Of a stretch of 64,000 nt of DNA, positions 26,444 to 45,991 are shown piece after piece. The position numbers and the translations under genes are program-made. Position 1 is the stretch's first letter. The number at the start of each line of letters is the position of its first letter. The DNA is taken from the NCBI GenBank assembly GCA_022376465.1, contig JACDTU010000001.1:2232001-2296000 (forward strand). The letters are read 5' to 3'. The notes beneath the pieces are model-generated. The model had not been told where the DNA came from, made no database searches, and was given only the letters and a program-made list of their open reading frames with translations. The DNA comes from Cubamyces lactineus. Taxonomy: Eukaryota > Basidiomycota > Agaricomycetes > Polyporales > Polyporaceae.

Positions 26444-26860
26444 TGTTACGACGAGCCTAGATCGGTCACAGCAAGCGACGTCCTAGGGATCGGACCAGAG
26501 GTCTCCAGTAGTTCGAGTCGAGTAGAGGTTCAGAGGAATAGGCAATGGATAACCAGGTCGAGCTGAGGATCCCGAGCGGATCCTCTGGTCTTAAATACAG
26601 GAAGAGAGACATGGACACGTCAGCGCCACGTAGGCGCCACGTACCGTGAGGGTCCAGTATAACTACGTAGAGTCAGGGCTGGGAATACAGATGATGTGGC
26701 GATGACGTGGCGGAAGGTGATAGGGTAGTAATACAACAGCCGTGTGAACCGGTGGGAAAGGGTGACGTGGCATGGGAAAGGATGACGTGGCATAACGGAG
26801 GCACGAGGGAGAGAGAGGAAAAGGAAACTGGGTGGCCGTGACGTACTGAGCGTCGTAACA
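26444..26860 (-). repeat. 3' LTR of LTR-2
   Basis: 417 bp, apparently identical to 33683-34099. It is flanked inside by a purine tract on the minus strand (GAAGGGGGTAA, about 26861-26871) that can prime plus-strand synthesis. Confidence 0.95.
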
Positions 26861-26909
26861 TTACCCCCTTCGTATGCTTCTACGCTGTTCCATCAGCGGA
26901 ATATCCAGC

Positions 26910-27944
26910 TCAACTCGTAAACCGCTCGTCCATGTCTTCTGGGCGCAGAGGGCACTCCCACGGGTGATGGCCAGGGGCGGTGGCGCGACACCAGACACAT
27001 CGCCAGTCTCTGCACCGCAGGTACTCGTGATCGGGCGACCCACAGACTAGGCAGCTGCGGCCAATAGGGTGGAGGGACGGCGGGGACTCAGGTCGGGCTG
27101 GCGAAGCGTCCATTGGGGCGGGCGAGGTGTCTCTTCGAGCTCTTACGTTACGCTCGTCGGGGGATGGATCACGGGGCCGACGGCTTCCTGCGGAGACTCT
27201 GGTGTGGAACAAGGGCAGATAGGTCCCTTGGCGTCGGGCTTCGCCGGGTACTCTTCTTGCCGCAGCTGGGAGTTCTCCGGGAGGTGGGGCCGCGTCGTTG
27301 ATGACCGAGGCCAGTGGCGCCATCCTTGCACGGAATGCGGGGAGTTCAAATGTTTGTATGAGGAAGTTCCTCCACGTGCGCGTGGTCCGGGCGAGCCGTC
27401 GAGTGGTGTTCAAAGAGTGTCTTGCCAACCTCCGTAACTCGTGGGCATGGTGCCCGACGTTTTCGAGGGCGCGCGCCTGCCGTTCTGCGATGTCGTAGTC
27501 CGAGACTTGCCGTTGCTCCTCTTCTTCACCAAACACCTCATGAAGAGCGTCTAGAGCGTCCTCTGCGATGTCAGCTGCGTCAACAAGGTTCCCTTCCAGT
27601 GCGTCCAGTTCCCGTTGCTCGTTGTAGAGGCATCGATACTCTCTAAGGAAGTACTGCAAGCCTCGCTCGGTGGCATTGACGACTGGGGTAGGGTTGGTGA
27701 GGAGCGCACGGAGCAACTGGTTGACGTCGGGGTGCCGGGAGTGGTCTACCAGATGAGAGTCTTCGACACCAACCGTGCTGAGGTCCGACGTCGAGGAGGC
27801 GGGCGATGGTGACCTAGAGGTGTATTCCGGTGGGGGCGACGAGAGGCGTCTGGCGAGTGGGGGAGGAATGGGTAGCGGCTGTTGGTTTTCCTGGTCGCTT
27901 GCATTGTCGTCAGCGACTTGGGTGCTATAGAGGGGGCGGCCCAT
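26910..27944 (-). CDS. LTR-2 accessory ORF3: double zinc-knuckle protein, 344 aa
   Basis: Starts at ATG 27944, one nucleotide after the stop of the preceding small ORF (TAG-A-ATG). It begins MGRPLYSTQVADDNAS; an upstream TTG in frame is less likely. Layout: a Pro/Ser-rich disordered N-terminus (1-65), a helical middle (about 70-215) with acidic and Arg/His-rich heptads suggesting a coiled coil or capsid-like helical domain, a basic Arg/Pro linker, and two CCHC zinc knuckles at the C-terminus: CLVCGSPDHEYLRC (C-x2-C-x4-H-x4-C) and CVWCRATAPGHHPWEC (C-x2-C-x6-H-x4-C). This looks like a second Gag-type nucleic-acid-binding protein encoded after pol. No function is assigned. Confidence 0.75.
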   Translation of the reverse strand: MGRPLYSTQVADDNASDQENQQPLPIPPPLARRLSSPPPEYTSRSPSPASSTSDLSTVGVEDSHLVDHSRHPDVNQLLRALLTNPTPVVNATERGLQYFLREYRCLYNEQRELDALEGNLVDAADIAEDALDALHEVFGEEEEQRQVSDYDIAERQARALENVGHHAHELRRLARHSLNTTRRLARTTRTWRNFLIQTFELPAFRARMAPLASVINDAAPPPGELPAAARRVPGEARRQGTYLPLFHTRVSAGSRRPRDPSPDERNVRARRDTSPAPMDASPARPESPPSLHPIGRSCLVCGSPDHEYLRCRDWRCVWCRATAPGHHPWECPLRPEDMDERFTS

Positions 27945-27945
27945 T

Positions 27946-28134
27946 CTACTCGTCCCAGCTGGAGTTATTGAGGGTGCGGTCGGCCTGGTCAAGCTTGTCG
28001 TTTACGGGGTCGAGAGGGTCACGGTGTTCGAGAGCAATTTCGAGGATGTTGATGGAGAGGCGCAGGTGAGTGGCGATGAAGGCAAGGGCAAGGAGGTAGC
28101 CGAGGGTCATGCAGGTGAAGAGCGCGATGATCAT
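27946..28134 (-). CDS. LTR-2 accessory ORF2: small single-helix membrane protein, 62 aa
   Basis: ATG 28134 to TAG 27946. The N-terminus MIIALFTCMTLGYLLALAFI is one hydrophobic helix; the rest is amphipathic and acidic (LEIALEHRDPLDPVNDK). It begins 5 nt after the stop of the upstream small ORF and ends 1 nt before ORF3, which suggests coupled termination-reinitiation or a shared subgenomic message. No homologue recognised. It is too small and lacks the cleavage sites and cysteines of an envelope protein. Confidence 0.55.
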   Translation of the reverse strand: MIIALFTCMTLGYLLALAFIATHLRLSINILEIALEHRDPLDPVNDKLDQADRTLNNSSWDE

Positions 28135-28139
28135 GGGCT

Positions 28140-28298
28140 TCACGATCCCCACGCTGATCGGGATGGGTAGTCACGGCTGTGGAGAGTGTGCTCGATGATG
28201 CGGTTGAAGAGGTCGCGGAGGATATACCAGAGAAAGAGGAGGGTGATAGCGAGGAGGGTGAGGCAGTAGATGGCGAAGAGGATGGCGAGAGAGAGCAT
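28140..28298 (-). CDS. LTR-2 accessory ORF1: small single-helix membrane protein, 52 aa
   Basis: ATG 28298 to TGA 28140, beginning 6 nt after the pol stop codon. MLSLAILFAIYCLTLLAITL continues into LFLWYILRDLF, a strong N-terminal transmembrane helix, followed by a short basic/serine tail. It is the first of three tightly packed ORFs behind pol. No family is recognised; similarity to ORF2 in size and topology (N-terminal helix, short polar tail) suggests the pair may act together. Confidence 0.55.
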   Translation of the reverse strand: MLSLAILFAIYCLTLLAITLLFLWYILRDLFNRIIEHTLHSRDYPSRSAWGS

Positions 28299-28304
28299 TG
28301 CAGA

Positions 28305-31300
28305 TTACAGCAGCTTCTTCGCCCTTTTATACCGTTGGAGGATTTCTTTGGTGTTCGGAATTAGAGCGGACTCGGGTTCCCATGTGTTCTCGGCGCTGGA
28401 GTAGCCTTTCCACTTGATTTGGTAGCGGATTCCGCCTCGTGTGGTCTTGTGTCCGACGATCGCTTCGACCTCATATTCTTCTTCTCCGTCGATAAGGTCA
28501 GGTGGTGACCTTGTGTAGTTCGGTCCGTGGGTGTCGTTTTCCTTGTATGGGGTGAGGAAGCATGCGTGGAACACAGGGTGTACCTTCCAGTGTTTCGGCA
28601 GCTCCAGCCGATAGGTCACGGGTCCAAGTACTTCGGTGATGACAAAGGGGCCTTCCCGTTTGGGTGCGAGTTTCCGGGATGCGTAAGCGAGCTTGAGGTT
28701 CTTCCCTTCGAGCCAGACCTTCTGTCCTTTCTTGAATTGGACGAACTTTCCCTTGAACCTGTCGCGTATGACGTGTCGGGCTAGCTCGTGGGCTGCTAGG
28801 GCTTCGTCTCGGGCCTTCTGGAGGTTCACTAGCCGTTCTTGTACTGTCGGGGTGTTGGTCTTGGGGTATGCGATAGGAATCAGTGTCGGTTCGTACCCCA
28901 TCATGAGGTAGAATGGTGATGCGTTCCGTGCTGAGTGGGTCCGTTGATTGTGTGCAACTTCTGCGTCGACAAGGTGTTCCGCCCATTCGTCTGGTCGGCC
29001 TTCGCAGAATATCCTGAGGTAGACTTCCAGTTCTTGATTCACTCATTCAGTTTGTCCGTCGGTCTGCGGGTGATATGCGGTAGACGGGGAAAGGGTGATG
29101 CCTAAGAGTCTTCCTAGTTCGCGAGTGACGTTGGATACGAATTGTGGCCCTCGGTCGGATATGATCTTGCTGGGTAGTCCAAAGTGTCGGTAGACATGCC
29201 GGTGGTAAAGCGCCGCTGTGCCGATTGCGTCGATCGTCTTCTTGCATGGTGCGAAAATCACCCCCTTCGTAAGGCCATGGTCGACCACGACCAGAATACT
29301 ATCGTAGCCGTGGGATTCGGGGAGATCGGTGATGAGATCCACCGTGACGTTCTGGAATGGCCGAGTAACATCGTCAGCGGGGATTGGTTGTGGGGGCGGG
29401 GTGGTCGGGTGTGTGTTTGGCTTGTTCTGCTGGCATGTGGCACAGCCTTCGACGTATCGGGATACCATGGCATACATGCCGGGCCACCAGTATGACCGTC
29501 GTATCAGTTCTAGAGTCTTGAATTTCCCAGGGTGTCCGGCTGCCGGGGAGTCGTGGTGTTGACTGATCAGGTCTCGTCGCAGGGCTTCGTCGGCCGGTAC
29601 GTAGCATCGGTGCTTGTAGAAGATTAAGCCATCTCGTTCTTGCCAATCGGTGAGTGCACTTCTGATCGGGGGTGGTCCGTCGTGTTGGATGGCAGCAAGT
29701 GCGTCGCAAAAAAGTCTGTCTTGCGTGGCCAAGTGTCGGAACCTCGGTGCCAGCCGGGTGTCCACTAGTCGTACGAAGAGGTTGTCAGGTAGCATGGTTC
29801 GTTCAGTATTGTCGTCTTCTGATCCTTGTCGGTGATCGGGTCTTCGGGATAGCGCATCCGATTGTACCATTGCCGTGCCGGGGGTGTGTACGAGTTGGAT
29901 GTCGAACTGGGAGAGAAAGAGGGCCCATCGTGCTTGTCGTCTGTTCAGTTGTTGCGGGTTGCGCCAGTAGGTGAGGTTCTTGTGGTCGGATAGGATCGTA
30001 ACCGGGTGCCCTGATCCTTCGAGGTAGTGTCGCCAGGCCTTCAGGGCTCGAATGATGCCAAGTAGTTCTCGGTCATAGATTTCGTAGTTCCGTTCCGCTT
30101 CGGTGAATCCTTCGGATAGATACGCGCACGGGTGCAGGTCGCCGTTGGCATCTCGCTGCCGGAGTACTGCCCCTGTGGCCCATTGCGAAGCGTCGGATTC
30201 GACAACAAAGGGTTTGCTAACGTCGGGCATTTGCAGCACGGGGCCGTCGCGAATCGTTGCTTCAGCATGTCGAAGGCCTTCTGGCATTCCGTTGTCCATT
30301 CCCATTTAGCGTCTTTCTTGGTGAGCACGTTGAGCGGTCGCGCGATCTCCGAGAAGTGGTCGATGAATCGTCGGTAAAAGTTGCCGAATCCAAGGAATGA
30401 TCGAACGTCCTTGACAGTTGTCGGTTCTGGCCAGTCGAGTATTCCTTTTATCTTGATAGGGTCCATGGAGATCCGGTTCTCGCTGATGATCATTCCAAGA
30501 TACTCCACTTCTGGTGCGTCGAATATGCACTTCTCTAGCTTGAGGTAGAGGTCGTGTTCTTTGAGTCGTTCCAGGACACGTAAGGTCCTTCTTCGGTGTT
30601 CGTCCAGGTCTGCCGAAAAGATCAGTATGTCGTCCATGTAAATCACTACCCATCCTTCGTCGATCATGTCTGCGAAGATCGCGTTCATCATAGCTTGGAA
30701 GGCCGAGGGGGAGTTCTGCAGTCCAAAGAACATGACCATTGGTTCGTATAGCCCTTTGCTGGTTCGGAAGGCGGCCTTCCATTGATCACCGTCCTTGATA
30801 CGGACGTTGTTGTATCCCGACCGGAGGTCCAGTTTGGAGAAAACCTTCGCTCCGCGCAGCTTGTCGACCAATTCCGATATGAGTGGTAGTGGGTACTTGT
30901 TGGGGACGGTCCCTTCGTTGAGGTATCGATAGTCTTGGCAGGGTCGTAGTGTTCCGTCCTTCTTGCCGACGAAGAAGAATGGGGATGCCATCGGCGAGTT
31001 CGAGGGTCGGATGTAGCCTTTTCGTAGGTTCTCCCGGATGAATTCCTCCTCGGCTTCGAGTTCCTTGGGCGTGAGTTGATATCGCTTGAAGTCCTTCGGG
31101 GTAAAGCCTTCCTTGAGTTCAATGGCCAGGTCCCAGGGTCGTGATGGTGGGAATCGTTCGGATGCCTTCTTTTCAAAGATGGCGGCATATCCTCGGTACG
31201 GTTCGGGGAGCATTTCTTCGAAAGTCTTCTTCTCTTCCTGTGCTTGGTGCTGTTGTGCGAGTGCCATTGCGGGGTTGACCTTTGCTCGGATCCAGACGTT

Positions 31301-32152
31301 GGCTGCAATTGCAAATCGAAGTCCTTGTGGGGCTCGTCGGATTCTTCCGATGGTGGGTCCGGGTCCAATCTTCGTGGGTTCGTAGTCGTGTTCCGTGGTG
31401 AGGGGGGATCCGGGTCGAGGCATATCTCCGTGCCATTCTGTCGCATGCGATGCTATCATGGCTTCGTGTTCTCTGCGAAGATAAGCTATCAGCAGATCTT
31501 GGTCGTTGGGTTCTTCTTCCGGGTGCACGTCGGAGAGGGTAACTCGTTCGATGTTCTCGTAGATTGGTTCTTGGGTCGATGCTTCCTCGGTCGCGTCTTC
31601 GTCTTCTTCATCTGTTTCTTCGTTCGGTTCTTCTTCAACTGGCTTGGGTCTTCCGGTGAAGGGGTCTTGATCTGGGAACCACATTGCACGCAGATGTTCC
31701 ACAATTGTTCGGTTCACCCGGGCGGGGTCGATATCGAGGGACCCTTTCGTGAAGTCGATGTTGGCATTGACGCGCTGCAGCCATGGCAGGCCCAGGATGA
31801 TTGGTTCCTTTCCTAGCGACGTAATCAGGAACCGCACAATGTGTCGGTGGCGCCCAGCTTCAATCTCAAGGACTGCGCATTTCTTGATATCGCCTGCTTC
31901 ATTCCTGGTTCCGTCAGCGTTGTATACTCGGATCGGGGCTTTCAGCGATTTGAGCGGGAAGTTGTGCTCTTTCGCAAACCTGTGGTCCATGAATACTTCT
32001 CCCGCTCCCGTGTCGATGAGGGCTTTCGTTTCGACGCTTAGGTCCGCGTGGATAGATAACGGAATTCTCATAGACTGTCGAGAAGTCTGCGCTACTATTA
32101 CACGGCGGACCTTAGTACGCGGTCGTGACGTCGAGGCACGCCGGTTCTTCAA
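28305..32152 (-). pseudogene. pol: LTR-2 pol (protease-RT-RNase H-integrase-chromodomain) with one frameshift and one nonsense codon
   Basis: Reached by -1 frameshift from gag; the pol frame is open from 32152. Aspartic protease: ALIDTGAGEVFMD (about 32050). Reverse transcriptase: DLRSGYNNVRIKDGDQWKAA and catalytic VIYMDDILIFSAD. RNase [36 protein letters not shown]. Integrase: HHCC zinc domain ([19 protein letters not shown] ... GCATCQQNK), D,D,E core including [20 protein letters not shown]-terminal chromodomain: YQIKWKGYSSAENTWEPESA. Breaks: a single-nucleotide loss at about 30240, at the RT/RNase H boundary, and an in-frame TGA at 29043-29045 right after QTDGQTE where family members carry Arg. 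Everything downstream remains open to the stop at 28305. Confidence 0.9.
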
Positions 32153-33150
32153 AAACCCTCGTTGGAGAAGCTTGCGAGGATTTCCTTCACGTCTTGGTCT
32201 TCCTCTAGCCCCTTCAGAGCGGTACGGATCCTTGCTGCGATAAGCTGCTTCTTGTCAGCCGCTTGGCCATCGATGGATTTGATGTCTTCATCATCGTCGC
32301 TCTCGTCTTCTTCGACCTCGGTGATGCGGGCCTTGGCAGCTGGCTTCGTCTTCTTACGGTCATTGGTTCTTCTGTTGGGGCACTGCCGCGCTAGATGCCC
32401 TATCTGGTGGCAATTGAAGCATCGTCCTTCTCGGTAGTGCTTCTCACGTTCTTCGGTCGTCATCTTGTCGACATCCATGGCGTCAGGGTCGCGTTCTTGC
32501 GGTCGGGGTCTGTACGGCTTGTACGTAGGTCGGAAGGTCGAGGTCTTCCCGTTGTATGCTCTTCCCAGGTGATACTGCTGTTCGAGAGTGGAGGCTCGGA
32601 GGTAGAGTTCGCTGGCGTCCTTCGGTAGGGGGTACATCCCGAAGATCTTCTCTCGAAGGGGACGGTTGAGTCCAGCATAGAAGAAGTCGGCAATGACTTC
32701 GAACTCTGTGATTCCGCATCGCGAGATGATCGACTTGAACTCGGCGATGTAGTCTTCGACTTTCTTGCTTCCTTGCTTCAGGTTTCGCAGCAGCACACGG
32801 GCGCTGGCCTTCTGGTCGATGTCGTCGAATGCTTCCAGTAGTTGCTTCTTGAAGTCGTCCCATGTTCCGTAGTTGGGTTCGATACGTCCTTCGCCTGGTC
32901 TTCGGTTCTTGTTCTGGTCGGCTGCCTGCCGTTCTACGTCTTCAATGAAGGTGCGGGCCCAGGTTCCGGCGGTGCCCCCGTTCATCAGCATAAGGCAGAA
33001 GACGATCTTCATTTCGTCGGTGGCGTAGGTCTTCTTGTTCATCGTGAGGTAGAGGGAGCATTTCTGCAACCACTCCACTACTTCGCCCCGCTTCCCTGAG
33101 AACTCTGGGGGCATCTTGAGCTTGATCTCGTTCGTCTTTTCTTCAGCCAT
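32149..33150 (-). CDS. gag: LTR-2 gag (capsid/nucleocapsid), with a non-AUG open extension upstream to 33654
   Basis: Structural protein of the retrotransposon particle. From the first ATG (33150) it reads MAEEKTNEIKLKMPPEFSG, then the Ty3-type capsid block KRGEVVEWLQKCSLYLTMNK through YIAEFKSIISRCG, and a C-terminal zinc knuckle CFNCHQIGHLARQC (C-x2-C-x4-H-x4-C). The stop TGA (32151-32149) directly follows GAG GGT TTT. Oddly, the same frame stays open upstream for 168 codons (33151-33654) with no ATG and plausible protein composition, including VDKEAKLVYYEGQQVFWKN and SWHFTEVPLTWRNCLD. Gag may therefore start at a non-AUG codon. Confidence 0.88.
   Translation of the reverse strand: MAEEKTNEIKLKMPPEFSGKRGEVVEWLQKCSLYLTMNKKTYATDEMKIVFCLMLMNGGTAGTWARTFIEDVERQAADQNKNRRPGEGRIEPNYGTWDDFKKQLLEAFDDIDQKASARVLLRNLKQGSKKVEDYIAEFKSIISRCGITEFEVIADFFYAGLNRPLREKIFGMYPLPKDASELYLRASTLEQQYHLGRAYNGKTSTFRPTYKPYRPRPQERDPDAMDVDKMTTEEREKHYREGRCFNCHQIGHLARQCPNRRTNDRKKTKPAAKARITEVEEDESDDDEDIKSIDGQAADKKQLIAARIRTALKGLEEDQDVKEILASFSNEGF
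32152..32158 (-). promoter_or_regulatory. Programmed -1 frameshift site of LTR-2 (G GGT TTT)
   Basis: The canonical X XXY YYZ heptamer lies in the gag frame as GAG GGT TTT TGA, so the ribosome would slip just before the gag stop. The pol frame then opens at 32152 (TTG AAG AAC), exactly one base back. Confidence 0.8.
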
Positions 33151-33670
33151 CGTGGCTTCGGTTCGGCCTTCGGGTTCGTTTGCAGTTCGGTTCGATTCTT
33201 CTTGAGGGGTCTTCCCTACGGGTTCTGGTGCGGCTTCGCTTCCCTCCGGGTCGTGGTCGTCGTTCGAAGTTCTTGTAGCGTTCTCGCTTTCTGGTTCACT
33301 CTCCTCGAGTATCTCCGCCTGAGCTGGTCTGGGAGTAGTGAAGTCTACCGGGGAAGGTTGTTCTGGTTCTGTTCTTGGTTCCGGGGTGGCCGCTGGTTCC
33401 TCCGGAAGTTCGTCTCCAAGTGATATTTCGCGGTAGCGTCTTCGGTAGTCGGGGTCGATGTCAAGGCAGTTCCGCCAGGTGAGAGGGACTTCGGTGAAGT
33501 GCCAGGACTTGTTCTTCCAGAAGACTTGTTGCCCTTCGTAGTAGACTAGCTTGGCTTCCTTGTCAACCGCAAATTCTTTCGGTATCGACGCCGTGTTGTT
33601 CGGTTCGGGGCCGCTCTGTCTTGAGCGGGTGTCGTGTGTCGAGATCTGGGTAGATCAACGGGTTCTGGTG

Positions 33671-33680
33671 AGCTCGACCT
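33671..33680 (-). promoter_or_regulatory. Self-complementary primer-binding site of LTR-2
   Basis: Two nucleotides inside the 5' LTR, the minus strand reads AGGTCGAGCT. Its exact reverse complement AGCTCGACCT lies in the LTR (33794-33803), 33 nt downstream of the TATA box, where the mRNA 5' end is expected. No initiator-tRNA complement is seen. This matches Tf1-type self-priming. Confidence 0.7.
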
Positions 33681-33682
33681 AA

Positions 33683-34099
33683 TGTTACGACGAGCCTAGA
33701 TCGGTCACAGCAAGCGACGTCCTAGGGATCGGACCAGAGGTCTCCAGTAGTTCGAGTCGAGTAGAGGTTCAGAGGAATAGGCAATGGATAACCAGGTCGA
33801 GCTGAGGATCCCGAGCGGATCCTCTGGTCTTAAATACAGGAAGAGAGACATGGACACGTCAGCGCCACGTAGGCGCCACGTACCGTGAGGGTCCAGTATA
33901 ACTACGTAGAGTCAGGGCTGGGAATACAGATGATGTGGCGATGACGTGGCGGAAGGTGATAGGGTAGTAATACAACAGCCGTGTGAACCGGTGGGAAAGG
34001 GTGACGTGGCATGGGAAAGGATGACGTGGCATAACGGAGGCACGAGGGAGAGAGAGGAAAAGGAAACTGGGTGGCCGTGACGTACTGAGCGTCGTAACA
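33683..34099 (-). repeat. 5' LTR of LTR-2 (promoter copy)
   Basis: In transcription direction it starts at 34099. U3 holds four TGACGT-type sites (34078-34085, 34022-34029, 34002-34009, 33942-33949), then the TATA box TATTTAAG (33836-33829), then the predicted transcript start near 33803. Confidence 0.95.
33829..34085 (-). promoter_or_regulatory. LTR-2 U3 promoter: CRE-like TGACGT(GG) array plus TATA box
   Basis: Three exact TGACGTGG motifs and one TGACGTAC lie about 105-250 bp upstream of TATTTAAG. TGACGT is the core site of ATF/CREB-type bZIP factors. The LTR therefore looks built for stress-responsive transcription, as known for fission-yeast Tf elements through Atf1. Inference from motif only. 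Confidence 0.55.
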
Positions 34100-34553: not shown

Positions 34554-37500
34554 TCACAGAGTGTATCTGAATCCAGGTGCGCGATCACCCATTCGTTTCA
34601 GCTCTTCCTCTGTGAGCTGGACGCGCAAGCCCTTCTCTTCCATATCACGTTCTGCCGCATCCCTGCACGCGTTCCTGCGCGCGTATATGAGCGCCGTCGT
34701 AGGTACGATGACCAATCCCATCGAGATGAGGCACAACTCCGCAACGTCTGGACCGAAAGTAATCCCAGTGTGAGCGTCGAGCCCTTCTTATGAGAGCTGC
34801 CGTACATGATACTCACGCCCACGGATATAGCGAGGTGCATCTTCGACGCGGTAGATGTTGCTTGCGACGATCCCGGCAATGTTACCGAACATGATTTGCA
34901 TGCCGAGGCCCACACCGCGTTTGTAGTGTCCGACCGCGTTATTGCCCAGCCTGCGACTCTCAGTCAGTACCCGGCTTCCGCAATGAGGCGAAGCACACAG
35001 ACCAAGAGATCGCCATGGGCGCTGAGGAGTACGCCCCGATCACGACGAAGTATAGTCCGGCGTACTTCGCGCCGATTGAAGCGTTCGAGATGTTGATACA
35101 GAATCCTAGAAAGGTGATGCAAAGCCCCACGAATACGAAGGGGGATCTCATCTTGGTGACGTCGGAATAGTGTGAACAGATCACTGTCATCGCCGCTGAG
35201 TCTCGGTGAGCGGAGAATGCAGTACATACTGTACGAGGGCACCTACTAGCGATGACGTATGGCGGCACGGACAGCAATTGCAAAATTGCAGGGTTATACC
35301 CAAATCTACGAGGATAGCTGAGCATACTGCTGGCTTACGCAGAACGGTGGCGGGTTTACCCATTGATAATAGATCTGCGAGGCAATCATAGTGAGACTAC
35401 GCTGTTGCCGAAGTGTGTATGACTGCTTGTTACTCATGGTAAGAATAACGAAATACCATTAACTGGCGGGCGCATCGTTAGTCCCCGGGATTGAAATGTG
35501 CATATTAAGGTGAATGGACATACTTGGACCGGTGATGGCAACGTCTGTAAGGCACCCGGAAATGATTTTCCAGTCGAAAATGGCCGCAGGTATATGGCGC
35601 CACTCGAAATGTTCCTCTTCGCCCGCGCTCGAGTTGTCCTCCTCTATGTAACGCAGTCAATATTAGACGACATGCCGGAGTTCTGTGCAATGGACGTACT
35701 AAGACGATGAATCACATATGAACGTTCTTCCGGAGTGAGAAATTCAGCCATCTCCGGTAGATCCACGAAGACTAGAACATGTAAAAGCTATCCGTAAGTG
35801 TCATTCTAACTCGCACTGGGAGGGCGTACCGAAGAATGCAATGATTGCAGCGATGACGGTGAGGAGCCCTTCGACGATCTGCACCAAAATGAGAGATGAT
35901 CCAGACCAAAAGTGAAATAAACGCACAAAGATCCACGACCATCCAAGCAATCCAGCCGTGCCCGACATGAACAAGATACCATACGCGATCAAACCCGAGA
36001 AAGCTCCTGAGCATGTTCCGCCAGCCCAGAACAGTCTGAAGCGCCATGACAACATGTGACGCGGGTACCATAGAGATAGCCTGAGCAGTATGTTGTCAAC
36101 GAGTTCTGTACGAGGCAAAGGGAATGACCAAGTGGAGAGCTCACAAGTAGTATATTCCAGGAGAAAAACCTGCCTCCGCGACACCGAGACAGATTCGAAC
36201 ACCGACAAATTGCGGATACCTGTCGGTGTATCTGAGTTAGCTCGGTCACTCGAGCGGCTCAGAGGATGGCTCGTACGTCTTGACGAGTCCCATCAGAGTC
36301 CTAGAGCGTATTTCTGTTACGCCCCGTGCTGTAACCCCGAAGTCCGATCCCCGAACCCCCGTACTCCGCTCCTTACTCCGTGTTACGTACTCCGCTCCTC
36401 CGTACTCCGCTCCTCCGTACCCCGTACCCCCGACTCCGTTCTCCGTACTCCGCACTTCGTACTCCGTACTTCGGACTTCCCCCGACCCCATGACTTACAT
36501 GTCTCAGATAACCCCTCATGGCGCTGCCTACATGAGGCTTTTGCTTACTGAGCTATCTACGTTATCTTACCCTTGGCAAGTTACTTCGTACTTTCGTTCT
36601 ACTCCTTCCTATCACGTACATCTCTTATTGTTTTTATCGGGTTTCTGACTTAGTATAAATACTGCCCCGGAATGTAGTAGCTACGCAGTTCGGAAATCTC
36701 GTTATACTCATTACTGGTTCAACTCGTACTCCGACACTCAACCCCGACCCTCTAGTCCGACCAACCTTCGTTTCCAAGTCCGACCTCCGACCCGTCAAGT
36801 CCGTACTCCGCAGTCCGCAAATAGAGGACACCGAGTCGGAACCCGTGCGTTACTAATAGTTTCGCGAAAGTCCTCACTACAGTGCCAGTCCGACCTCCGG
36901 TCGTACTCCGTCCCCAAACTCCGTCCAAGTCCCGACCACCGGAGTTGTACCCCCGGACGGCACGGTCCTAACAGTATTTCCGAACTCACCGGGTTTCACT
37001 CAATATGTCCACTCGAACCGTAGCCCGCACTCAGACTCAATCTCGCGCCCTAGAGCAAGAAGACCCCGCCGAGAACTGGAGTGGCTGGACAGCTCGCCGA
37101 GGCGACTCAGCGACGCAAGAAGAAGCTACTCCGAGCCGCCGCGGGCAGTTCGCTCGAACAATCGTCGAAGCATCCTCCGATGGGGACGACGAAGGTGACC
37201 CGCCTCAGCCTCTGGTCATCTCTACCGCGACTGCCTCGCAGGTACCCCGAGAGCCATCCCCGGGGAACCCGTTCTCCGAGGGTCAGCCTTCAGGTCCGAG
37301 CCGCGGGCCTCCAGGTCCGCCTAGTCCTCCAGGTCCGCCGGGCCCTCCAGGACCGCCAGGTCCTCCGGACAACGACCCACAAGGGCCGGGAGACGACGAC
37401 ACTAGCTCAAGCTCGGACTCCTCCGACTCCGAAGACCGAGTTCAGTCGCAACTAGCGACCGCGATCTCCCTCATCGCGCGTACCCTCGAACGTACTACCG

Positions 37501-40500
37501 CTCCAACTCCGGCGGTTACCCAACCTTCGAACAACGAGCGGCACAACGTCCGCGAGCCGGACCAGTTCGACGGGTCCGACCCCAACAAACTCCGGTCTTT
37601 CTTCACGCAGTTGGAACTTGTCTTCAAGGCCCAACCCCGAACCTTCGACTCCGATGAGAAGAAGGTAACCTACGCCATCTCCTTCCTCAAGGGCACCGCA
37701 CTACAGTGGTTCGAGCCATACCTCCTCGAAGGCGACTCGGACAACCCCCCCATTTTCCTCACATCCTACGACCACTTCCAGGAGGAACTCCGAGTGAACT
37801 TCGGTCCCTACGACGCCTCCGGAGCTGCGGAGCACGAGCTGATGAACCTCCGGATGGGCGACAACCAGCGGATAGCTAAGTACATCACTCAGTTCACTCG
37901 CCTCGCTACTCAAGTCCGCTGGGGGAATGCTCCGCTCCGGTACCGGTTCTACGACGGGCTTCCGAACCGTCTCAAGGACCGCATCTCCGAGGTCGGCAAA
38001 CCCGAGACCCTGGTGGCCCTCCGCGACCTCGCGCAGTCAATCGACAACCGCTACTGGGAGCGCAAGGCCGAGGTCTCGCGCGAGTCCGGACCTTCAAAGT
38101 CCGGCAGCAAGTCGACCTCCGACTCCAAGTCCTCCAACTCCGGTAACAAGTCCGGAGGTAACAACTCCGGGCAGGCCTCCTCGTCTACCCCGTCCAAGTC
38201 CGGCAATTCCGGTACTTCGTCGAAGTCTCCTAAGACTCCGAAGACCCCGGCCAAGACGTACGCCGACAAGCTCGGTAAGGACGGAAAACTCACCCCCGAG
38301 GAGCGTCAACGCCGTTTCGCCAACAATCTCTGTCTCTTCTGCGGTGGAGCTGGTCATACCGCGAGTGCTTGTCCGAAGAAGACCTCGTCCGCGACTAAGG
38401 GTCGTGCTGCACAAGCCAACCCCGCTCCCGCTGCGCCTGCTCCGGCTGCAGCCTCGAAGGAGACAAAAAATTAGTCCGTGGTCCTCCGAACTCCGTACCC
38501 CGTGAGGACCGCGTTGACTCCTCCGGTACAGAGATCCTCAGGCTCAACGCGTCCGCTCTTTCCGACCCCCATGCACTCCTCCTCGACTTGTACTCCGATC
38601 CTATCCCAACTCCGTTCCGCGCCCTTATCGACTCCGGTTCCTCCCATTGTTTCATCGACTCCGATTTCGCGACTACGTATCAACTCCCAACTACCGCAGT
38701 AACCCCGCTCCGTCTTCAGCTTTTCGACGGTACTTCTAACCACCTGATTACTTCGTTTACCACCCTGCCCGTACATTTTCCGTCTGGAGAAGTCCTCAAT
38801 ATAGATTTCTATGTTACTCCGCTCGACAAGTCCGTGTCTGCCGTTCTGGGATACAGCTGGCTCTCCGCCTACAATCCGTTGATTGACTGGAAGAAGCGCA
38901 GCATCCAATTCCGTTCCGCACCCCCGCCGCGTCCTGTTTCTGACACCATGGTACCCCCGCCAGCTCCGGCTGAGCGTACTCCGTCTACTCCGTCTACTCC
39001 GGCTACTCCGGAACTACCGACTTCTCCTACTCCGACCTCCGTTCCCCGGATCTCTCTGGTGAACGCTGCTGCTTTCGCTCGAGCTTGCAAACTCCCGGGG
39101 TCCGCGAGTTATACCCTGAATCTGTCTACCCCGGACTTGGCTACTGCTCGGAGTTCGTCCATCTCCAACTCTCCCCCGGACCTCACCGGAGTTCCGGAGG
39201 GGTACCACGAGTTTGCGGACGTCTTCAGCAAGACCAAGGCTGACATCCTACCGGAGCATCGCCCCTACGACCTAAAGATCGACCTGGAAGAAGGGGCTAC
39301 TCCGCCACTCGGCCTATCTACTCTCTCTCAAAACTCGAGCTCGACACGCTTCGGGAGTACATCGACGAGAACCTCCGTTCGGGGTTCATACGTCCGTCCA
39401 ATTCCCCCTGCGGAGCTCCCGTCCTCTTCGTCAAAAGAAGGACGGATCCCTTCGCCTTTGCGTGGACTACCGGGGCTTGAATAAGATCACCCGGAAGGAC
39501 CGCTACCCCCTTCCTCTCGTCTCGGACTTGCTGGACGCACCTCGGAAGGCCCGGATCTATACCAAAATCGACCTCCGTCACGCTTACAATCTAGTCCGCA
39601 CAGCCCCGGAGATGAGTGGAAGACCGCGTTTCGGACTCGCTATGGGTCCTTCGAATGGTTAGTCATGCCGTTCGGACTTTCGAACGCGCCCGCTGCCTTT
39701 CAGCGGTTCGTCAATGACATCTTCGCGGATATGCTCGACGTGTGCGTCATCGTCTACCTAGACGACATCCTCATCTACTCCGACAACCCCGAGCAACACC
39801 GCAAGCACGTCAAAGAGGTACTCCGGCGACTCCGCAAGCACCGGCTTTATGCCTGCGCTGACAAGTGCGAGTTCCACACCGACTCCGTCGAGTACCTCGG
39901 GTACATCCTCTCTCCCACCGGACTTACCATGGCGGAGTCGAAGGTTAAGGCGATCTTGGATTGGCCCGAACCCCGGAAGGTTCGCGACATACAGTCGTTC
40001 CTGGGGTTCGCGAATTTCTATCGACGGTTTATTCCAAACTACTCCGAGATCGTACTACCACTGACCCGCTTAACCCGCAAGTCCGTGCCTTGGCACTTCT
40101 CCGAGGAATGTCGGAGTTCGTTTAACGCTCTCAAGAAGGCGTTCACGACAGCTCCGGTACTACACCACTGGATGCCCGACCGACCCCTCACCGTCGAGAC
40201 CGACGCCTCGGACTACGCCATCGCCGGCATTCTCTCCCTTACCACCGAGTCCGGTGAACTCCACCCCATTGCTTTCCACTCCCGCACCTTGACCGGCGCG
40301 GAGTTGAACTACGACACCCACGACAAGGAACTCCTCGCGATCTTCGAATGTTTCAAGACCTGGCGGCACTACCTCGAAGGTTCGGCAACCCCGATCGACG
40401 TTGTCACGGACCACAAGAATTTGGTATACTTCGCGACTACGAAGTTACTGACCCGCCGCCAAGCCCGATGGTCGGAGTTCCTCTCGCAGTTCAACCTCGT

Positions 40501-43500
40501 AGTCCGATTCCGGCCAGGTAAGCTTGGAGCGAAGCCCGACGCACTGACACGCCGTTGGGACGTCTACCCAAAAGAGGGGGGCAGTGACTACTCCGTCGTC
40601 AACCCACACAACTACCGACCGGTTTTCACCCAGGAGCAGCTCGCCGCGTCCCTCCGGGCCACCTACCTCCGACCCCCCGTACTCCGAGCTTCCTTCATCC
40701 TCGACTCCGAACAACTCCTCTCGGACATCAAGTCCGCTCAAGCAACCCCGACTCCTGACCCCGAACTATCTGCCGCACTCAAGCTCGCCTCCGAAGGCAA
40801 CTCCCGATGGTCCCGCGATGAAGACGGGTTACTCCGACTCTCAGGTCGAGTCTATGTCCCGAACTCCGGCGACCTCCGCCTTCGCGTACTCCGAGCTTGT
40901 CACGACCATCCTACTGCCGGACACTGGGGACAGAACAAGACGCAAGCCCTGGTCCTGCGGGACTACGCCTGGCCCGGACTTCGACTCTTCGTCCGGGACT
41001 ACTGTAAGTCCTGTACTACCTGTGCGCGAGCTAAAGTCCCCCGGCATCTTCCCTACGGTACTTTGAAGCAACTCCCGATCCCCAAGCGACCCTGGAACTC
41101 CATCTCCATGGACCTCATCGAGCAACTCCCGAACTCCGCTGGCTACACCGCGATCTTGGTGGTAGTCGACAGGCTCACTAAGCAAGGTATATTCATCCCT
41201 ACCCACGACACGCTTACAGCCTCGGAGTTAGCGGACTTGTTCGTACTCCATGTGTTCTCCAAGCACGGAGTTCCCTCGCACGTTACCTCCGACCGGGGCT
41301 CGGAGTTCGTCTCTCACTTCTTCCGCTCCCTCGGTAAGGCCCTCGACATGCGCCTTCACTTCACCTCCGGTTACCACCCGGAAGGCGACGGTCAAACCGA
41401 GCGGGTTAACCAGACCCTCGAGCAGTACCTCCGGATCTATTCGAACTACCAGCAGGACAACTGGTCCCAACTCCTTCCCTTGGCGGAGTTCGCGTACAAC
41501 AATGCCCCATCCGCAACCACCGGTATATCCCCGTTCTTCGCGAACAAGGGCTACAACCCCGCCATCTCCGTCTACCCCGAGCGGGACCTCACCTCCGCTC
41601 GAGCTCGTGACTACGCTGTCGACCTCGACGAACTTCACACCCAACTCCGACAGCAGATCTCCGAAGCCCAGGCCCGATACCAAGTACAGGCGGACAAACA
41701 CCGTCTACCGGCGCCGGACTTCAAGGTCGGAGATCAGGTCTATGTCCGAGCTCAGCACATCCGGACTACACGTCCTTCCAAAAAGTTGTCCGAGAAGTTC
41801 TTAGGTCCGTTCACTATCATCGCGCAAGTCGGAACTCACTCCTTCACCCTCCGACTACCGGACTCTATGCGCGCGGTACACCCCGTTTTCCATGTCTCGC
41901 AACTCGAGCCTGCAACTCCGAACACCATCCCCGGCCGTGTCCAAACTCCGCCACCTCCGATCCTGGTGGACGGAGAACCGGAGTACGAGATTTCGGAGAT
42001 CCTCGACTCCAAGATTGACCGCCGGCGTCGGAGTTGTCAACTCCTGTACCTAGTTCGATGGGCAGGCTACGAAGGTACGGACGAAGAAACTTCGTGGATC
42101 TTAGCCACGGAGCTCGGACATGCCCAGGAGCTAGTTTCGGACTTCCACGCAGCTTACCCGGACAAGCCCGGACCTCTTGCTAAGTTGTCTTGAGGTTCAC
42201 ACACGGAGTTCTCACCAACAGAATTTTACTATTCTACTCCGCACCCGGACTACAATTGTCTACCTACGAAGCCTGTAGTCCGAAGTCCGTAGTCCGCCCT
42301 ACTCCGCCATGTCCATGTCCGCCGGGTCCTCCGGCCCCTTCCCCTCCTTAGCGCCCTTGCCCTGCTCCTCCTCCTCACCGGACTTGCCCCGCGCGGACTT
42401 GTCCAACCCCGACCCATTCTCCTCCTCCTCCCAGTCCGACCCCGCAACCCCCGCCCGCTCCAGCGCGTCCGCGATCACGTCCTCCTTGTCCTGCGAGGTG
42501 ATCTCAAGGATCTCCCGCAGCATAGTCCCGAACTCCGTCGCGAGTTCGGACTTCACCGCCTCGCGGACGGCCTCGCCGATCACGGCCTTCAACTCCTTCC
42601 GCACGATCTTGGCGATGGCGTCGCCAAGACCCCGGACTTCCTCCCGCATCATCTCCTCCCGCTGCTCCTCCTCGTCGACCAGGAGGTCGATGACCCGCCC
42701 CGCGGTGCGCCGGTTGCGCTGCACCGCGACGAGCAGGTGCTCGAGGAGCTCGCGGTCGGAGAGCTTCTCCGGGTCATCGGACCACCGGAGGTCGGACTTC
42801 CCAACCTCCGGAAGTCCGGAGCTGGCGGACATGCGGGGGCCCGTCGACGAGCCCGCGATGCTCGGACCTCGGGCTACTACCGTCCGCGCTGGTGGGTTAA
42901 CTCCGGGCGGTGCTACGAATGTCCACCGGACCTCACCTGGTTGGAGCGGCTTCTCCGCCGCCTTCTCCGCCGGCTTCTCCTTCTCCTTCCCCTTGCCCTT
43001 CTCCGCCCGCACCTTCTCCGAACTCCGAACTCCGGTGGGCGCGGGGGTCTCGAATCCGTCGTCGTCGACGACGATGGCGGCGGACTTGACCTTCTTGCGC
43101 TGCGGGCTGGGGGCCTCCTCCTTGCGCGTGATCCGGGCCTGGATGTCCGCGGGCAACCCGCGAGCCCCGACGCACGCGCGCGACCGGGCCTTCTGGCATT
43201 GGACGCAACTTGACGTCCGTTTGCCCGCGCGGAACCGGCACGCGATCTGCTTTGCGGCGCACCGGTCGCACTTCGTCCTGTGGAACTCCGTTAGTCCGAA
43301 CCCCGTACTCCGTACCCCGACTGGACTTACCACGGGACGAGCAACTCCGCGTCGTCCTCCTCCTCCTCCTCCGACTCCGGCTCTTCATCCTCCGCGGGAC
43401 GCTTGCTTCCCCGCGCGGAAGTCCCGGCCTTCGCGAGGGCAGCCTGGCGAATCGAGGCGACCCCGTGCCAACAACATGTCACCACCTTGCAATTGCCAGG

Positions 43501-45991
43501 CAAGGTGCTGCAATTTCCCTTGCTAGAACAAGGCCGGAAGTTGCAAGGGATGACATGTCACCACAAGGCTGCCAGAAAGTGAAAAATGCGACATAATGCA
43601 AAGGTGGCACCAACAGGAGTTGAACCCGGGACCTCAGGAGTTCCCGGGAGTCTCCTCCAGCAGCATTAACCACTGCACCATGGAGCTGTTACTAACCTCT
43701 ACTTCTAATTCCAATATATCACCGCTTTTCCACTGCTTTAGACCTTCATTGCTGCTACATTGATATACAAAGAAGCATAGATACAGATTCTTTGAACGCA
43801 TTTTTGATGCTTTATCAAGAGATATAGATGTTCTTTCCACATATATGGTATATAGAATGAAGCAAAAAGCGGTGATATATTGGAATTAGAAGTAAGGGTT
43901 AGTAACAGCCCCATGGTGCAGTGGTTAATGCTGCTGGAGGAGACTCCCGGGAACTCCTGAGGTCCCGGGTTCAATTCCTGTTGGTGCCACCTTTGCATTA
44001 TGTTGCATTTTTCGCTTTCTGGCAGCCTTGTGGTGACATGTCATCCCTTGCAACTTCCGGCCTTGTTCTAGCAAGGGAAATTGCAGCACCTTGCCTGGCA
44101 ATTGCAAGGTGGTGACATGTTGTTGGCACGGGGACTGGTGGCGAATCAACGCCGCTGCCTTCTGCGCGGCCTCGTACTCCGCGCGCTCCTTCTCCTCCCG
44201 CGCTTGCTCCTCCTCCGCCTTTCGCGCCCTGTAAACCACCGTTAGCCCGAACTCCGCACCCCGAAACCCCGGCAACCCTGGTACTTACGCCTCCGCTGCC
44301 GCGGCCTCCTCCGCCGCCGCCTTCATTCGGAGTTGCGCGAGGTGGGCCTCCAAGGCCTGGATGTTGTCGAGGGTTGTAGACATGCTGGTGGTGGTGGTGG
44401 TGGGAGACAGAGAGCGAGGACGAACTGGCTAAGTCTCACCCCCGTCTTATATACACCTTTCTTCATCGATTCTGACCCTGCCCCGATTCTTGATCTCCGT
44501 TCCCTGGACTTATCGGATTACCTTTTTTGGGCAGACTTCCATTTCTCTTCACTATAGGCCCTCAAGGGTTCGGGCCTAGGGGGGAGGCACTGTTACGCCC
44601 CGTGCTGTAACCCCGAAGTCTGATCCCCGAACCCCCGTACTCCGCTCCTTACTCCGTGTTACGTACTCCGCTCCTCCGTACTCCGCTCCTCCGTACCCCG
44701 TACCCCCGACTCCGTTCTCCGTACTCCGCACTTCGTACTCCGTACTTCGGACTTCCCCCGACCCCATGACTTACATGTCTCAGATAACCCCTCATGGCGC
44801 TGCCTACATGAGGCTTTTGCTTACTGAGCTATCTACGTTATCTTACCCTTGGCAAGTTACTTCGTACTTTCGTTCTACTCCTTCCTATCACGTACATCTC
44901 TTATTGTTTTTATCGGGTTTCTGACTTAGTATAAATACTGCCCCGGAATGTAGTAGCTACGCAGTTCGGAAATCTCGTTATACTCATTACTGGTTCAACT
45001 CGTACTCCGACACTCAACCCCGACCCTCTAGTCCGACTAACCTTCGTTTCCAAGTCCGACCTCCGACCCGTCAAGTCCGTACTCCGCAGTCCGCAAATAG
45101 AGGACACCGAGTCGGAACCCGTGCGTTACTAATAGTTTCGCGAAAGTCCTCACTACAGTGCCAGTCCGACCTCCGGTCGTACTCCGTCCCCGAACTCCGT
45201 CCAAGTCCCGACCACCGGAGTTGTACCCCCGGACGGCACGGTCCTAACAATTTCATCACATCCATGGGCGGATCAGTAAAACGGCGCTGACATTTTGCTG
45301 TAGTCGACGGCTTACGCAACGATGCCCCAAGCCAGCTGAAGAGACGTCGATGAGACACATGTATGATATGTACTATAGTCAGCTTACTTACTGCCAGACC
45401 GGGGATCCACTTAGACGGTCTGAACTTCTTGAGTAGCAAGCTGCGCGGATCACGGCCACCGTCAACGTATGCATCGATGTGCGGGCACGAACACTCACTT
45501 GGAAGGAATGGTGCATACGCAGTAGAACTGCGGATGTTCTTGAGCGGTCTAACATTAGGAAGCATGCACAATGACATACGAGGTAGAACATGGTCTGCGA
45601 TTGACTTCAGATAACGGCTTATAGACAACCACAAGTATACTTACAAGAGCTATGTTGTATCTATCGCCAGTTAGGTCCAGTTGCGTTGCCAGCCCTTGTA
45701 ACTTCGCATTTCCTGCGAATCTCATCAGTTGCCGTAGAGATAAGTATTGAGGTCTCTAGGCTCACCGATACTGCCTCGGTCCAGGTACGATACAAGGTAC
45801 AATAAGGTGGATATGGGAATCAGCCGCTTATCGATCTTCTGCCATACCCTTCGCTCCTCCTCTGCATTGAGTATGGGAGGTGGAGGGAGAATATTAACCT
45901 GACAATCCGCGGACGTTTCGATAAGTGTATCCAGGGTGTCCTCGGGTTCTTTGCTCAACGCGGGTGCCACGGGTGCTGGATGGAGCGACAT
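34554..45991 (-). CDS. MFS transporter C, Dal5-type, split by LTR-1 inside an intron
   Basis: Third Dal5-type permease. The N-terminal part lies right of the retrotransposon: ATG 45991 ([20 protein letters not shown]), [56 protein letters not shown] and an exon ending at 45316. The C-terminal part lies left of it: the exon beginning at 36300 (TLMGLVKT), [80 protein letters not shown], ending [14 protein letters not shown]. The donor (45315/45314) and acceptor (36302/36301) join in frame across the element; without the 8,940-bp insertion the intron would be 75 bp. Coding sequence is therefore not cut, but a 9-kb intron with LTRs is unlikely to splice well. The element lies 13 bp from the acceptor, so it may also displace the branch point. 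Confidence 0.8.
36315..36973 (+). repeat. 5' LTR of LTR-1
   Basis: U3 (36315 to about 36485) carries roughly 18 CCG triplets, including tandem copies of CCGTACTCCGCTCC. The TATA box is TATAAATA (about 36653-36660) and the predicted transcript start is AGTTCGGAAAT at 36687. Confidence 0.95.
36976..36986 (+). promoter_or_regulatory. Self-complementary primer-binding site of LTR-1
   Basis: ATTTCCGAACT lies two nucleotides after the LTR end. Its exact 11-nt reverse complement AGTTCGGAAAT is at 36687-36697 in the LTR, about 34 nt after the TATA box, where the mRNA should begin. No tRNA-complementary sequence is seen. This matches Tf1/sushi-type self-priming. Confidence 0.75.
37005..38474 (+). CDS. 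gag: LTR-1 gag (489 aa)
   Basis: Capsid/nucleocapsid polyprotein starting at ATG 37005, 31 nt after the LTR. The N-terminal third is disordered and rich in Pro/Gly (collagen-like [10 protein letters not shown] runs, about residues 98-128) and Ser/Asp. The capsid core contains [34 protein letters not shown] and [21 protein letters not shown] Ser/Lys/Gly-rich linker leads to a C-terminal zinc knuckle [14 protein letters not shown] (C-x2-C-x4-H-x4-C). It ends ACA AAA AAT TAG, where the frame passes to pol. No breaks were seen. Confidence 0.93.
   Translation: MSTRTVARTQTQSRALEQEDPAENWSGWTARRGDSATQEEATPSRRGQFARTIVEASSDGDDEGDPPQPLVISTATASQVPREPSPGNPFSEGQPSGPSRGPPGPPSPPGPPGPPGPPGPPDNDPQGPGDDDTSSSSDSSDSEDRVQSQLATAISLIARTLERTTAPTPAVTQPSNNERHNVREPDQFDGSDPNKLRSFFTQLELVFKAQPRTFDSDEKKVTYAISFLKGTALQWFEPYLLEGDSDNPPIFLTSYDHFQEELRVNFGPYDASGAAEHELMNLRMGDNQRIAKYITQFTRLATQVRWGNAPLRYRFYDGLPNRLKDRISEVGKPETLVALRDLAQSIDNRYWERKAEVSRESGPSKSGSKSTSDSKSSNSGNKSGGNNSGQASSSTPSKSGNSGTSSKSPKTPKTPAKTYADKLGKDGKLTPEERQRRFANNLCLFCGGAGHTASACPKKTSSATKGRAAQANPAPAAPAPAAASKETKN
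38465..38471 (+). promoter_or_regulatory. Candidate -1 frameshift site of LTR-1 (A AAA AAT)
   Basis: The heptamer lies in the gag frame (ACA AAA AAT TAG), ending immediately before the gag stop. The -1 frame is open from here into the protease, with no stop before 39300. Downstream RNA structure was not assessed. Confidence 0.7.
38465..42193 (+). pseudogene. pol: LTR-1 pol (protease-RT-RNase H-integrase-chromodomain) with three apparent 1-nt losses in the RT region
   Basis: Protease: [16 protein letters not shown] (about 38620). Reverse transcriptase: [55 protein letters not shown]. RNase [37 protein letters not shown]. Integrase: [20 protein letters not shown] with [11 protein letters not shown] (HHCC), core [59 protein letters not shown]-type module [20 protein letters not shown]. 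Chromodomain: [20 protein letters not shown], ending at 42193. The reading frame slips at about 39316, 39433 and 39610; each slip fits loss of one base from a short run, and together they return to the original frame. Everything after 39665 (842 codons) is open. Confidence 0.92.
42299..44380 (-). CDS. LTR-1 antisense accessory gene: Zn2Cys6-like cluster plus coiled coils, interrupted by a nested element
   Basis: Convergent with pol. A minus-strand TATA box (GTATATAAG, about 44449-44457) precedes the ATG at 44380 ([20 protein letters not shown]). Exon 1 leads into a Glu/Ala/Lys/Arg coiled coil ([20 protein letters not shown]). After a nested insertion (43454-44138) the frame resumes with [20 protein letters not shown] and an acidic run. 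A 53-bp intron (about 43331-43279, branch-like CTAAC) precedes a binuclear-cluster motif [11 protein letters not shown] ... [12 protein letters not shown] (C-x2-C-x6-C-x11-C-x2-C-x7-C), then a basic KR-rich segment, a long helical region ([20 protein letters not shown] through [14 protein letters not shown]) and an acidic tail ending [11 protein letters not shown]. Intron 1 (about 44288-44230) also has CTAAC. About 430 aa when the insertion is ignored. Function unknown; it resembles a Gal4-type DNA-binding regulator. Confidence 0.7.
43603..43688 (-). repeat. tRNA-like module in left arm of the nested element
   Basis: The minus strand carries an A-box-like TGGTGCAGTGGTTAATGC and a B-box-like GGTTCAACTCC, with GGTGCCACC at the 3' end. 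Acceptor and T stems pair poorly, so it is a tRNA-derived (SINE-like) module rather than a working tRNA gene. Confidence 0.5.
43906..43991 (+). repeat. tRNA-like module in right arm of the nested element
   Basis: Inverted copy of the left module, with B box GGTTCAATTCC. It differs from the left copy at a few positions. Pol III promoter boxes are present; tRNA folding is poor. Confidence 0.5.
44591..45249 (+). repeat. 3' LTR of LTR-1
   Basis: 659 bp. It differs from the 5' LTR at three transitions that I can see (one near each of 44620, 45036 and 45190). It is preceded by the polypurine tract GGGGGGAGG (44578-44586). Confidence 0.95.

Follow-up and report, generated by a model that had tools for sequence, protein, structure and literature searches.

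Behind the pol gene of a retrotransposon of the fungus Cubamyces lactineus lies a compact module of three open reading frames (ORFs), here called ORF-A, ORF-B and ORF-C, which behave as protein-coding genes maintained by purifying selection. The element was found in a window of 64,000 nucleotides (nt), by which we mean the whole stretch of DNA analysed (GenBank assembly GCA_022376465.1, contig JACDTU010000001.1, positions 2,232,001 to 2,296,000); the minus strand of this window holds a 7656-nt Ty3/Gypsy chromovirus between two long terminal repeats (LTRs). An earlier reading made from the letters alone (the sequence-only reading) had described three ORFs of 52, 62 and 344 amino acids (aa) that follow the pol stop on the same strand with gaps of 6, 5 and 1 nt, one hydrophobic helix in each of the first two and a pair of CCHC knuckles ending the third, and the coordinates and translations bear out all of this. 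The order of A to C and their tight packing hold in two families of elements. We regard the module as real and selected; a model of membrane proteins with a partner is the best supported one, though its function and mode of expression are both things that we infer.

The genome assembly (36.3 Mb, 43 contigs) contains at least 87 matches to ORF-C, 74 to ORF-A and 59 to ORF-B, 54 of the last spanning the full length. The family of the window copy (locus L001) is called F1, and packing was counted at the 29 loci holding both the pol end and ORF-C (L001-L027, L029, L030); the gaps are exactly 6, 5 and 1 nt in 28 of them. At L019 the pol frame is broken and the A-B-C spacing of 5 and 1 is retained; L028 is a locus without pol, and L031, a more diverged cousin, has gaps of 6, 4 and 1 nt. 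Three further loci (L032, L047, L048) are degraded, as expected for any element.

Since young copies look alike anyway, divergence was used as the test for coding. Between the window copy and L031, the ratio of nonsynonymous to synonymous substitution rates (dN/dS) is 0.08 for the pol end (upper limit 0.18), 0.14 for ORF-A (confidence interval, CI, 0.04-0.36), 0.14 for ORF-B (CI 0.05-0.31) and 0.17 for ORF-C (CI 0.12-0.25). Twelve shifted-frame or antisense controls on the same alignments gave 0.55-6.7, the lowest being ORF-A antisense (CI 0.19-1.65). Distinct young F1 copies, pooled and compared with the window copy, gave 0.10 for A, 0.39 for B, 0.13 for C and 0.17 for the pol end. The sequence-only reading had said that it would be wrong if other copies lacked these ORFs or carried broken frames, or if dN/dS lay near 1; this was checked and the module passed, with 42 of the 44 ORF-C copies that are near full length at ≥98% identity free of internal stops and ratios of 0.14-0.17. 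Short ORFs are common in the window, but the selection on the real frames and their recurrence in a second family lead us to regard chance open frames in GC-rich sequence as refuted.

That second family, F2, has a pol end 81% identical to that of F1 in protein sequence, and behind it a chain of four ORFs: A' (77 aa, two helices), D' (74 aa, one helix, the additional member), B' (50 aa) and C' (433-434 aa where full length). Identity between the families is 52-54% for A, 35-37% for B and 30-31% for C. The junctions are tighter still, at 0, -4 and -8 nt: D' begins at the A' stop, the stop of D' and the start of B' share the sequence ATGA, and 8 nt are common to B' and C'. This chain was called by script in 10 of the 14 F2 loci (L033, L035, L036, L038, L039, L041, L042, L043, L045, L050), and L037 also fits it by its ORF coordinates; the exceptions are L034, with an early stop in D', L040, with a prolonged A', and L049, with a D' of 71 aa and a broken B'. 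Within F2, seven pairs, chosen rather than exhaustive and some with a C' shortened by a stop, gave dN/dS of 0.04-0.14 for A, 0.16-0.41 for D and 0.11-0.17 for C, while B', open in 13 of the 13 loci where it was sought, gave 0.18 (CI 0.09-0.30). Pol ratios involving L038 (0.50-0.63) are inflated by the broken pol frame of that locus; between F1 and F2 the pol end gave 0.08. One F2 copy, L035, is cut by a sequence (1-583; sense 2419 onward) with a transposase-like ORF, which by eye we take to be of Tc1/mariner type.

The 19-residue Kyte-Doolittle maxima of ORF-A and ORF-B are 2.68 and 2.36, and a maximum of at least 2.0 is reached by only 7 of the 216 window ORFs of 45-85 aa, A and B being counted among these. 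The helix of each holds an invariant Cys (5 aligned sequences per protein), and after this N-terminal helix both tails carry a similar I-x-E...RD-P stretch. A shuffling test for paralogy of A and B gave p of 0.0035-0.029 in 5 of 9 pairs and 0.15-0.71 in the other 4, and the hhalign probability is 18.9, so that a common origin is suggestive only; an internal duplication of the helix in A' (shuffle p 0.0005) is better supported, and D' has no significant similarity to A or B by the same approach (p 0.18 and 0.24). ORF-C carries an SDQEN...PPP...PPxY pattern that is invariant in 8 aligned sequences, with the PPxY at residue 38 in both the window copy and the F2 locus L036, whose C' has a second such motif, PPPY. 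PPxY is a ligand of the WW domains of NEDD4/Rsp5 ligases and also a retroviral late motif. The positions of these features and of the main parts of the element are listed below.

Positions in the window of the post-pol module and of its host element
Feature	Position	Strand	Description
ORF-A	28140..28298	-	52 aa; hydrophobic helix at residues 5-23, short tail ending RIIEHTLHSRDYPSRSAWGS
ORF-B	27946..28134	-	62 aa; hydrophobic helix at residues 2-20, acidic tail with ILEIALEHRDP
ORF-C	26910..27944	-	344 aa; proline-rich N-terminus with PPxY, predicted helical middle, two CCHC knuckles
PPEY (PPxY) of ORF-C	27822..27833	-	residues 38-41; aligns with PPNY/PPSY/PPPY of relatives
First CCHC knuckle of ORF-C	27012..27053	-	C-x2-C-x4-H-x4-C, residues 298-311
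Second CCHC knuckle of ORF-C	26952..26999	-	C-x2-C-x6-H-x4-C, residues 316-331
TATAAAA	28325..28331	-	candidate internal promoter in the pol end, 33 nt upstream of the ORF-A ATG
pol C-terminal part	28305..28904	-	integrase C-terminal SH3-like domain and chromodomain; stop 28307-28305
pol remainder	29043..32071	-	protease, reverse transcriptase (RT), RNase H, integrase (Pfam); frame interrupted in the window copy
gag	32149..33150	-	333 aa; Retrotrans_gag and one CCHC knuckle (Pfam); without PPxY
3' LTR	26444..26860	-	417 nt, identical to the 5' LTR
5' LTR	33683..34099	-	417 nt; TATTTAA at LTR position 264

Homology searches gave few leads. In Pfam, all matches of A, B and C, of their F2 versions, of the L031 ORF-C, of D' and of the post-pol ORF of a third family (F3, below) stayed below threshold, for example DUF7683 to ORF-C (E 0.0019). 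In the protein collection a search with the F1 ORF-C gave three relatives and one with the 8-sequence alignment four, the addition being a fragment (P0004); the one named is a hypothetical protein of Trametes cubensis. The F2 homologue had no relative there, an absence that is weak evidence with ~7990 candidates scored per search, and viral contigs gave no confirmed match. Pfam scans of the module proteins held no env match, no dedicated envelope search having been made. Two weak matches to HU in a profile search of the Protein Data Bank (PDB; E 0.096 and 0.17) were taken as chance, and a match of the F2 helical region to CoV_S2 (E 0.0043; 16.2 bits against a cut-off of 40) as coiled-coil noise. 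The sequence-only reading had called ORF-C a second Gag-like protein, a description that we drop: neither ORF-C nor its F2 and L031 homologues have a Gag domain in Pfam, ORF-C aligns with the element's own Gag in BLASTP at the knuckle only (E 0.17), and the three F2 homologues aligned lack the knuckles. Membrane targeting, which it had proposed among the possible roles, remains plausible.

With moderate confidence, we suggest that the three genes form an accessory module of one chromovirus lineage, in which membrane-acting small ORFs work together with C as a soluble partner. The module would be made apart from gag-pol, from a short transcript begun at the TATA box in the pol end and/or from full-length RNA, and the downstream ORFs would be reached by coupled termination and restart or by leaky scanning. 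A and B may be small membrane anchors with similar tails, while C could bind Rsp5/NEDD4-type ubiquitin ligases through its PPxY; its middle would be helical, and in F1 its knuckles would bind RNA. The three might jointly carry the RNA or the particles of the element to an endosome, the plasma membrane or a vesicle, or alter a host membrane process, and the outcome would be an aid to assembly, release or passage between hyphae.

For separate expression, the TATAAAA in the pol end is perhaps an internal promoter. The sense strand of the element (7656 nt) has a single copy of it, against 0.12 expected (300 simulated sequences), and the motif is present at all 34 F1-type loci, among them the cousins, and at 13 of the 14 F2 loci, 47 of the 48 examined, even though gag and the two pol parts counted use TAC (29:10) and AAG (69:23) more often. 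In foamy viruses an internal promoter drives accessory genes; as the cited sections of PMC3185757 describe it, that promoter is experimentally established, lies inside env and serves genes including the transactivator, whereas the fungal case consists of the conserved TATAAAA alone.

Termination and reinitiation might instead suffice by themselves, with a full-length message read through the region of the pol stop; this we consider possible but doubtful. The gaps of 6, 5 and 1 nt in F1 and of 0, -4 and -8 nt in most F2 loci provide the close or overlapping stops and starts seen in restart of the TURBS (termination upstream ribosome-binding site) type, and UGGGA, the core of the calicivirus restart element in the part of PMC5972666 that treats it, lies 13 nt upstream of the ORF-C start in F1 and L031. 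However, UGGGA is near a start solely before ORF-C (F1, L031) rather than before each restart, it is missing from the scanned F2 locus L036, and it lies on conserved Trp-Asp codons. In addition, pol itself requires a change of frame from gag. The two frames overlap by 106 nt at the end of gag, with pol open in the -1 frame, and GGGTTTT (window 32152-32158) immediately precedes the gag stop; the heptamer has the form of a -1 slippery site, and it looks like a frameshift site. Pol is likely a minor product; as it is reached through a frame change from gag, restart after pol should be rarer still and the yield very low.

Retroviral env is expressed from a spliced message, which speaks for a similar route here, with A, B and C joined to a leader near gag. 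The ORF3s of LTR elements also typically come from spliced messages, as far as the cited sections of PMC5408684 go, but the first YAG met upstream of the ORF-A start is at 97 nt in F1, at 72 nt in the F2 locus L036 and at 9 nt in L031, with no acceptor position in common, acceptors being the splice signal compared, and we consider a spliced origin of the module unlikely. Coupled translation is plausible, more so in F2 with its overlapping junctions. To this extent the sequence-only reading, which had taken the tight packing to suggest reinitiation or a bicistronic message, was on the right track; an internal promoter is a rival that it had not considered. Its remark that this is rare in nuclear fungal genes needs correction with regard to transcripts, though not to reinitiation: the cited parts of two studies report polycistronic transcripts, in one case from as many as 8% of the transcribed genes of Agaricomycetes, Trametes versicolor among them (PMC4503453), and in the other at 1272 loci in Ganoderma lingzhi (PMC11590231).

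A number of observations weigh against our proposal. TATAAAA falls on the codons of a conserved R-Y-K-[KR] and the copies are related by descent, so that the motif is a lead. A restart fully chained from pol would give very little product. Shuffled ORF-C sequences hold a PPxY by chance in 9% of cases for F1 and 18% for F2. AlphaFold models ORF-C poorly (mean pLDDT 47.7), and in the middle region (~89-218) a pLDDT of 70 is reached only in parts, as helices predicted with low to moderate confidence. No homologue of known function was found for ORF-C in Pfam, the protein collection or PDB sequences, or for A and B in Pfam. The CCHC knuckles, present in F1 and L031, are absent in all three F2 homologues aligned, and RNA binding is therefore not a conserved property of C; C' is full length in just 4 of the 14 F2 loci (L033, L034, L036, L039), so that many F2 copies have decayed there. 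One F2 pair has an upper limit of 1.03 for the dN/dS of D, and between F1 and F2 the ratio for ORF-A is 0.54 with a CI of 0.23-1.10, which reaches beyond 1 and thus is no proof of selection on A at that depth. The membrane role is a prediction from hydrophobicity.

Among rival functions, control of the host fares best, although we judge it clearly less probable than the accessory membrane module. Here the module, instead of serving particle assembly, would interfere with ubiquitin-dependent membrane traffic, silencing, incompatibility or competing elements. The PPxY ligase ligand in C would suit this, as would the greater divergence of the module than of pol between families, with the F1-F2 ratio of ORF-A just given, and the fact that the window copy and L031 differ most within the module, as an exchange of variants would predict. 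It is common, however, for accessory genes to evolve faster than pol, and the low dN/dS of every ORF within families shows no sign of an arms race. A more specific version of the membrane model seems rather unlikely to us: an operon for membrane egress or cell-to-cell transfer in an Envelope-less element, in which the PPxY partner would recruit NEDD4/Rsp5 and the endosomal sorting complexes required for transport (ESCRT), with an internal promoter and an overlapping chain of ORFs (four in F2).

We are more sceptical still of a fusogen like the fusion-associated small transmembrane (FAST) proteins, by which A and/or B would fuse membranes locally and let particles pass from cell to cell without Envelope. 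Small single-helix proteins with a short tail in an Envelope-less Metaviridae element do recall this, and insect sORF2 genes lie behind pol in 7 of 22 Lepidoptera consensus sequences in the data cited from a preprint (PMC11952523). But the N-myristoylation motif MGxxxS/T is absent in A, B, A', B' and D' (some sORF2 proteins also lack it, according to the relevant part of PMC11952523), and there is hardly an ectodomain, with 4 residues before the helix in A, 1 in B and 0 in B' (18 in D'). Nor is there a polybasic patch, the net charge in the 15 residues after the helix being 0 in A, 0 in B and -1 in B' (-3 in D'). With 52 and 62 aa, A and B fall short of the 63-107 aa given in the same portion of PMC11952523; their helix is N-terminal, not central, while D' has 74 aa and A' 77 aa with two helices.

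The insect sORF1/sORF2 genes (Drosophila mdg1-group and other Metaviridae) share with the fungal module an Envelope-less LTR element and a small single-helix membrane protein, sometimes behind pol; on the account in the cited sections of PMC11952523, however, they lie mostly upstream of gag and usually carry an N-myristoylation motif, an ectodomain and a polybasic patch, whereas the fungal module chains two to three membrane ORFs to a partly helical PPxY protein without those three features. Bdelloid rotifer elements likewise have family-specific post-pol ORF3s, some transmembrane and some coiled-coil, but in the available sections of PMC5408684 the small ones have 210-230 aa, ORF3s come typically from spliced messages, and no chain of proteins of 50-77 aa is described. 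Where fungal Gypsy elements are surveyed together with one from a spikemoss (PMC2864245), a figure legend assigns an 'additional ORF with unknown function' to at least one element, giving no details and leaving the bearer unspecified; a survey of fungal LTR elements describes, in the portion cited, gag, pol and complex elements with inserted domains (PMC3248453). Literature searches aimed at such a post-pol module gave no description of it, subscription papers being thinly covered. Extra post-pol ORFs are already known as a kind, and this make-up is new as far as our searches reach. In outline, A and B are also like HIV Vpu and similar small viral membrane proteins, which have a short N-terminal membrane helix and a short tail.

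In most accounts, fungal retrotransposons are gag-pol elements that stay within their own cell. That selection keeps a chain of small membrane genes together with a PPxY partner suggests that the life cycle includes a step at a membrane, and such a step could bear on the passage of elements between hyphae or species. The chain would in addition provide an example, kept by selection, in which a nuclear RNA of a fungus yields three to four proteins by tightly coupled translation, and the 42 uninterrupted ORF-C copies in one genome make the module directly testable.

The host element is assigned to the Ty3/Gypsy chromoviruses by the order protease-RT-RNase H-integrase-chromodomain (Pfam, spread over three ORFs), by its LTRs and by a target-site duplication, GGCGC, flanking the element outside both LTRs. 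ORF-C ends 49 nt from the 3' LTR, and the module therefore fills the post-pol space. The pol frame of the window copy is broken into three ORFs, while an open pol frame of 1316 codons is found in at least 19 of the matches listed. The window insertion (26444-34099) is recent, because its LTRs are identical, and these stand beside the interrupted pol; trans mobilisation, early decay or sequence error are possible explanations.

The module seems to have a history partly of its own. Per 100 columns, identity of the window copy to L031 is 0.87-1.00 in the pol end, 0.67-0.89 in A and B and 0.49-0.78 in ORF-C, and in the LTR mostly 0.90-0.96, with 0.83 in the inner-edge block; a strongly diverged ORF-C is thus flanked by similar pol and LTR, in an island of divergence at window 26900-28300. 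The synonymous divergence (dS) is 0.17 in the pol end, then 0.39 in A, 0.74 in B and 1.59 in C. By eye, in the 8-sequence alignment, the L031 ORF-C resembles P0002 and P0003 (Trametes cubensis) more than it does the window copy. An older ORF-C variant seems to have entered a younger backbone through recombination, pointing to an exchange of module variants between elements.

Abundant in the same genome is a third family of chromoviruses (F3; pol end ~44-48% identical), which carry a different post-pol ORF of ~430 aa where whole; this ORF starts MVYT (L054:765-2060; also L051, L066, L067, L068) and in L054 has no Pfam match above cut-off. Together with the additional ORF in the survey legend (PMC2864245, label only), this counts against the statement of the sequence-only reading that chromoviruses normally end at the chromodomain. 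Nine F3-like loci (10 inspected of 20) had no small hydrophobic ORF between pol and the F3 ORF. At one of these nine (L062:1589-2022), downstream of a broken F3 ORF, two hydrophobic ORFs of 65 and 77 aa (19-residue maxima 2.57 and 2.74) lie 2 nt apart in repetitive-looking sequence. None of A, B and C has a significant match in a second LTR element of the window (36314-44889), which carries a 177-aa ORF antisense to gag-pol (42299-42832, minus strand) and, near its 3' end, a 269-nt inverted repeat (43461-44133).

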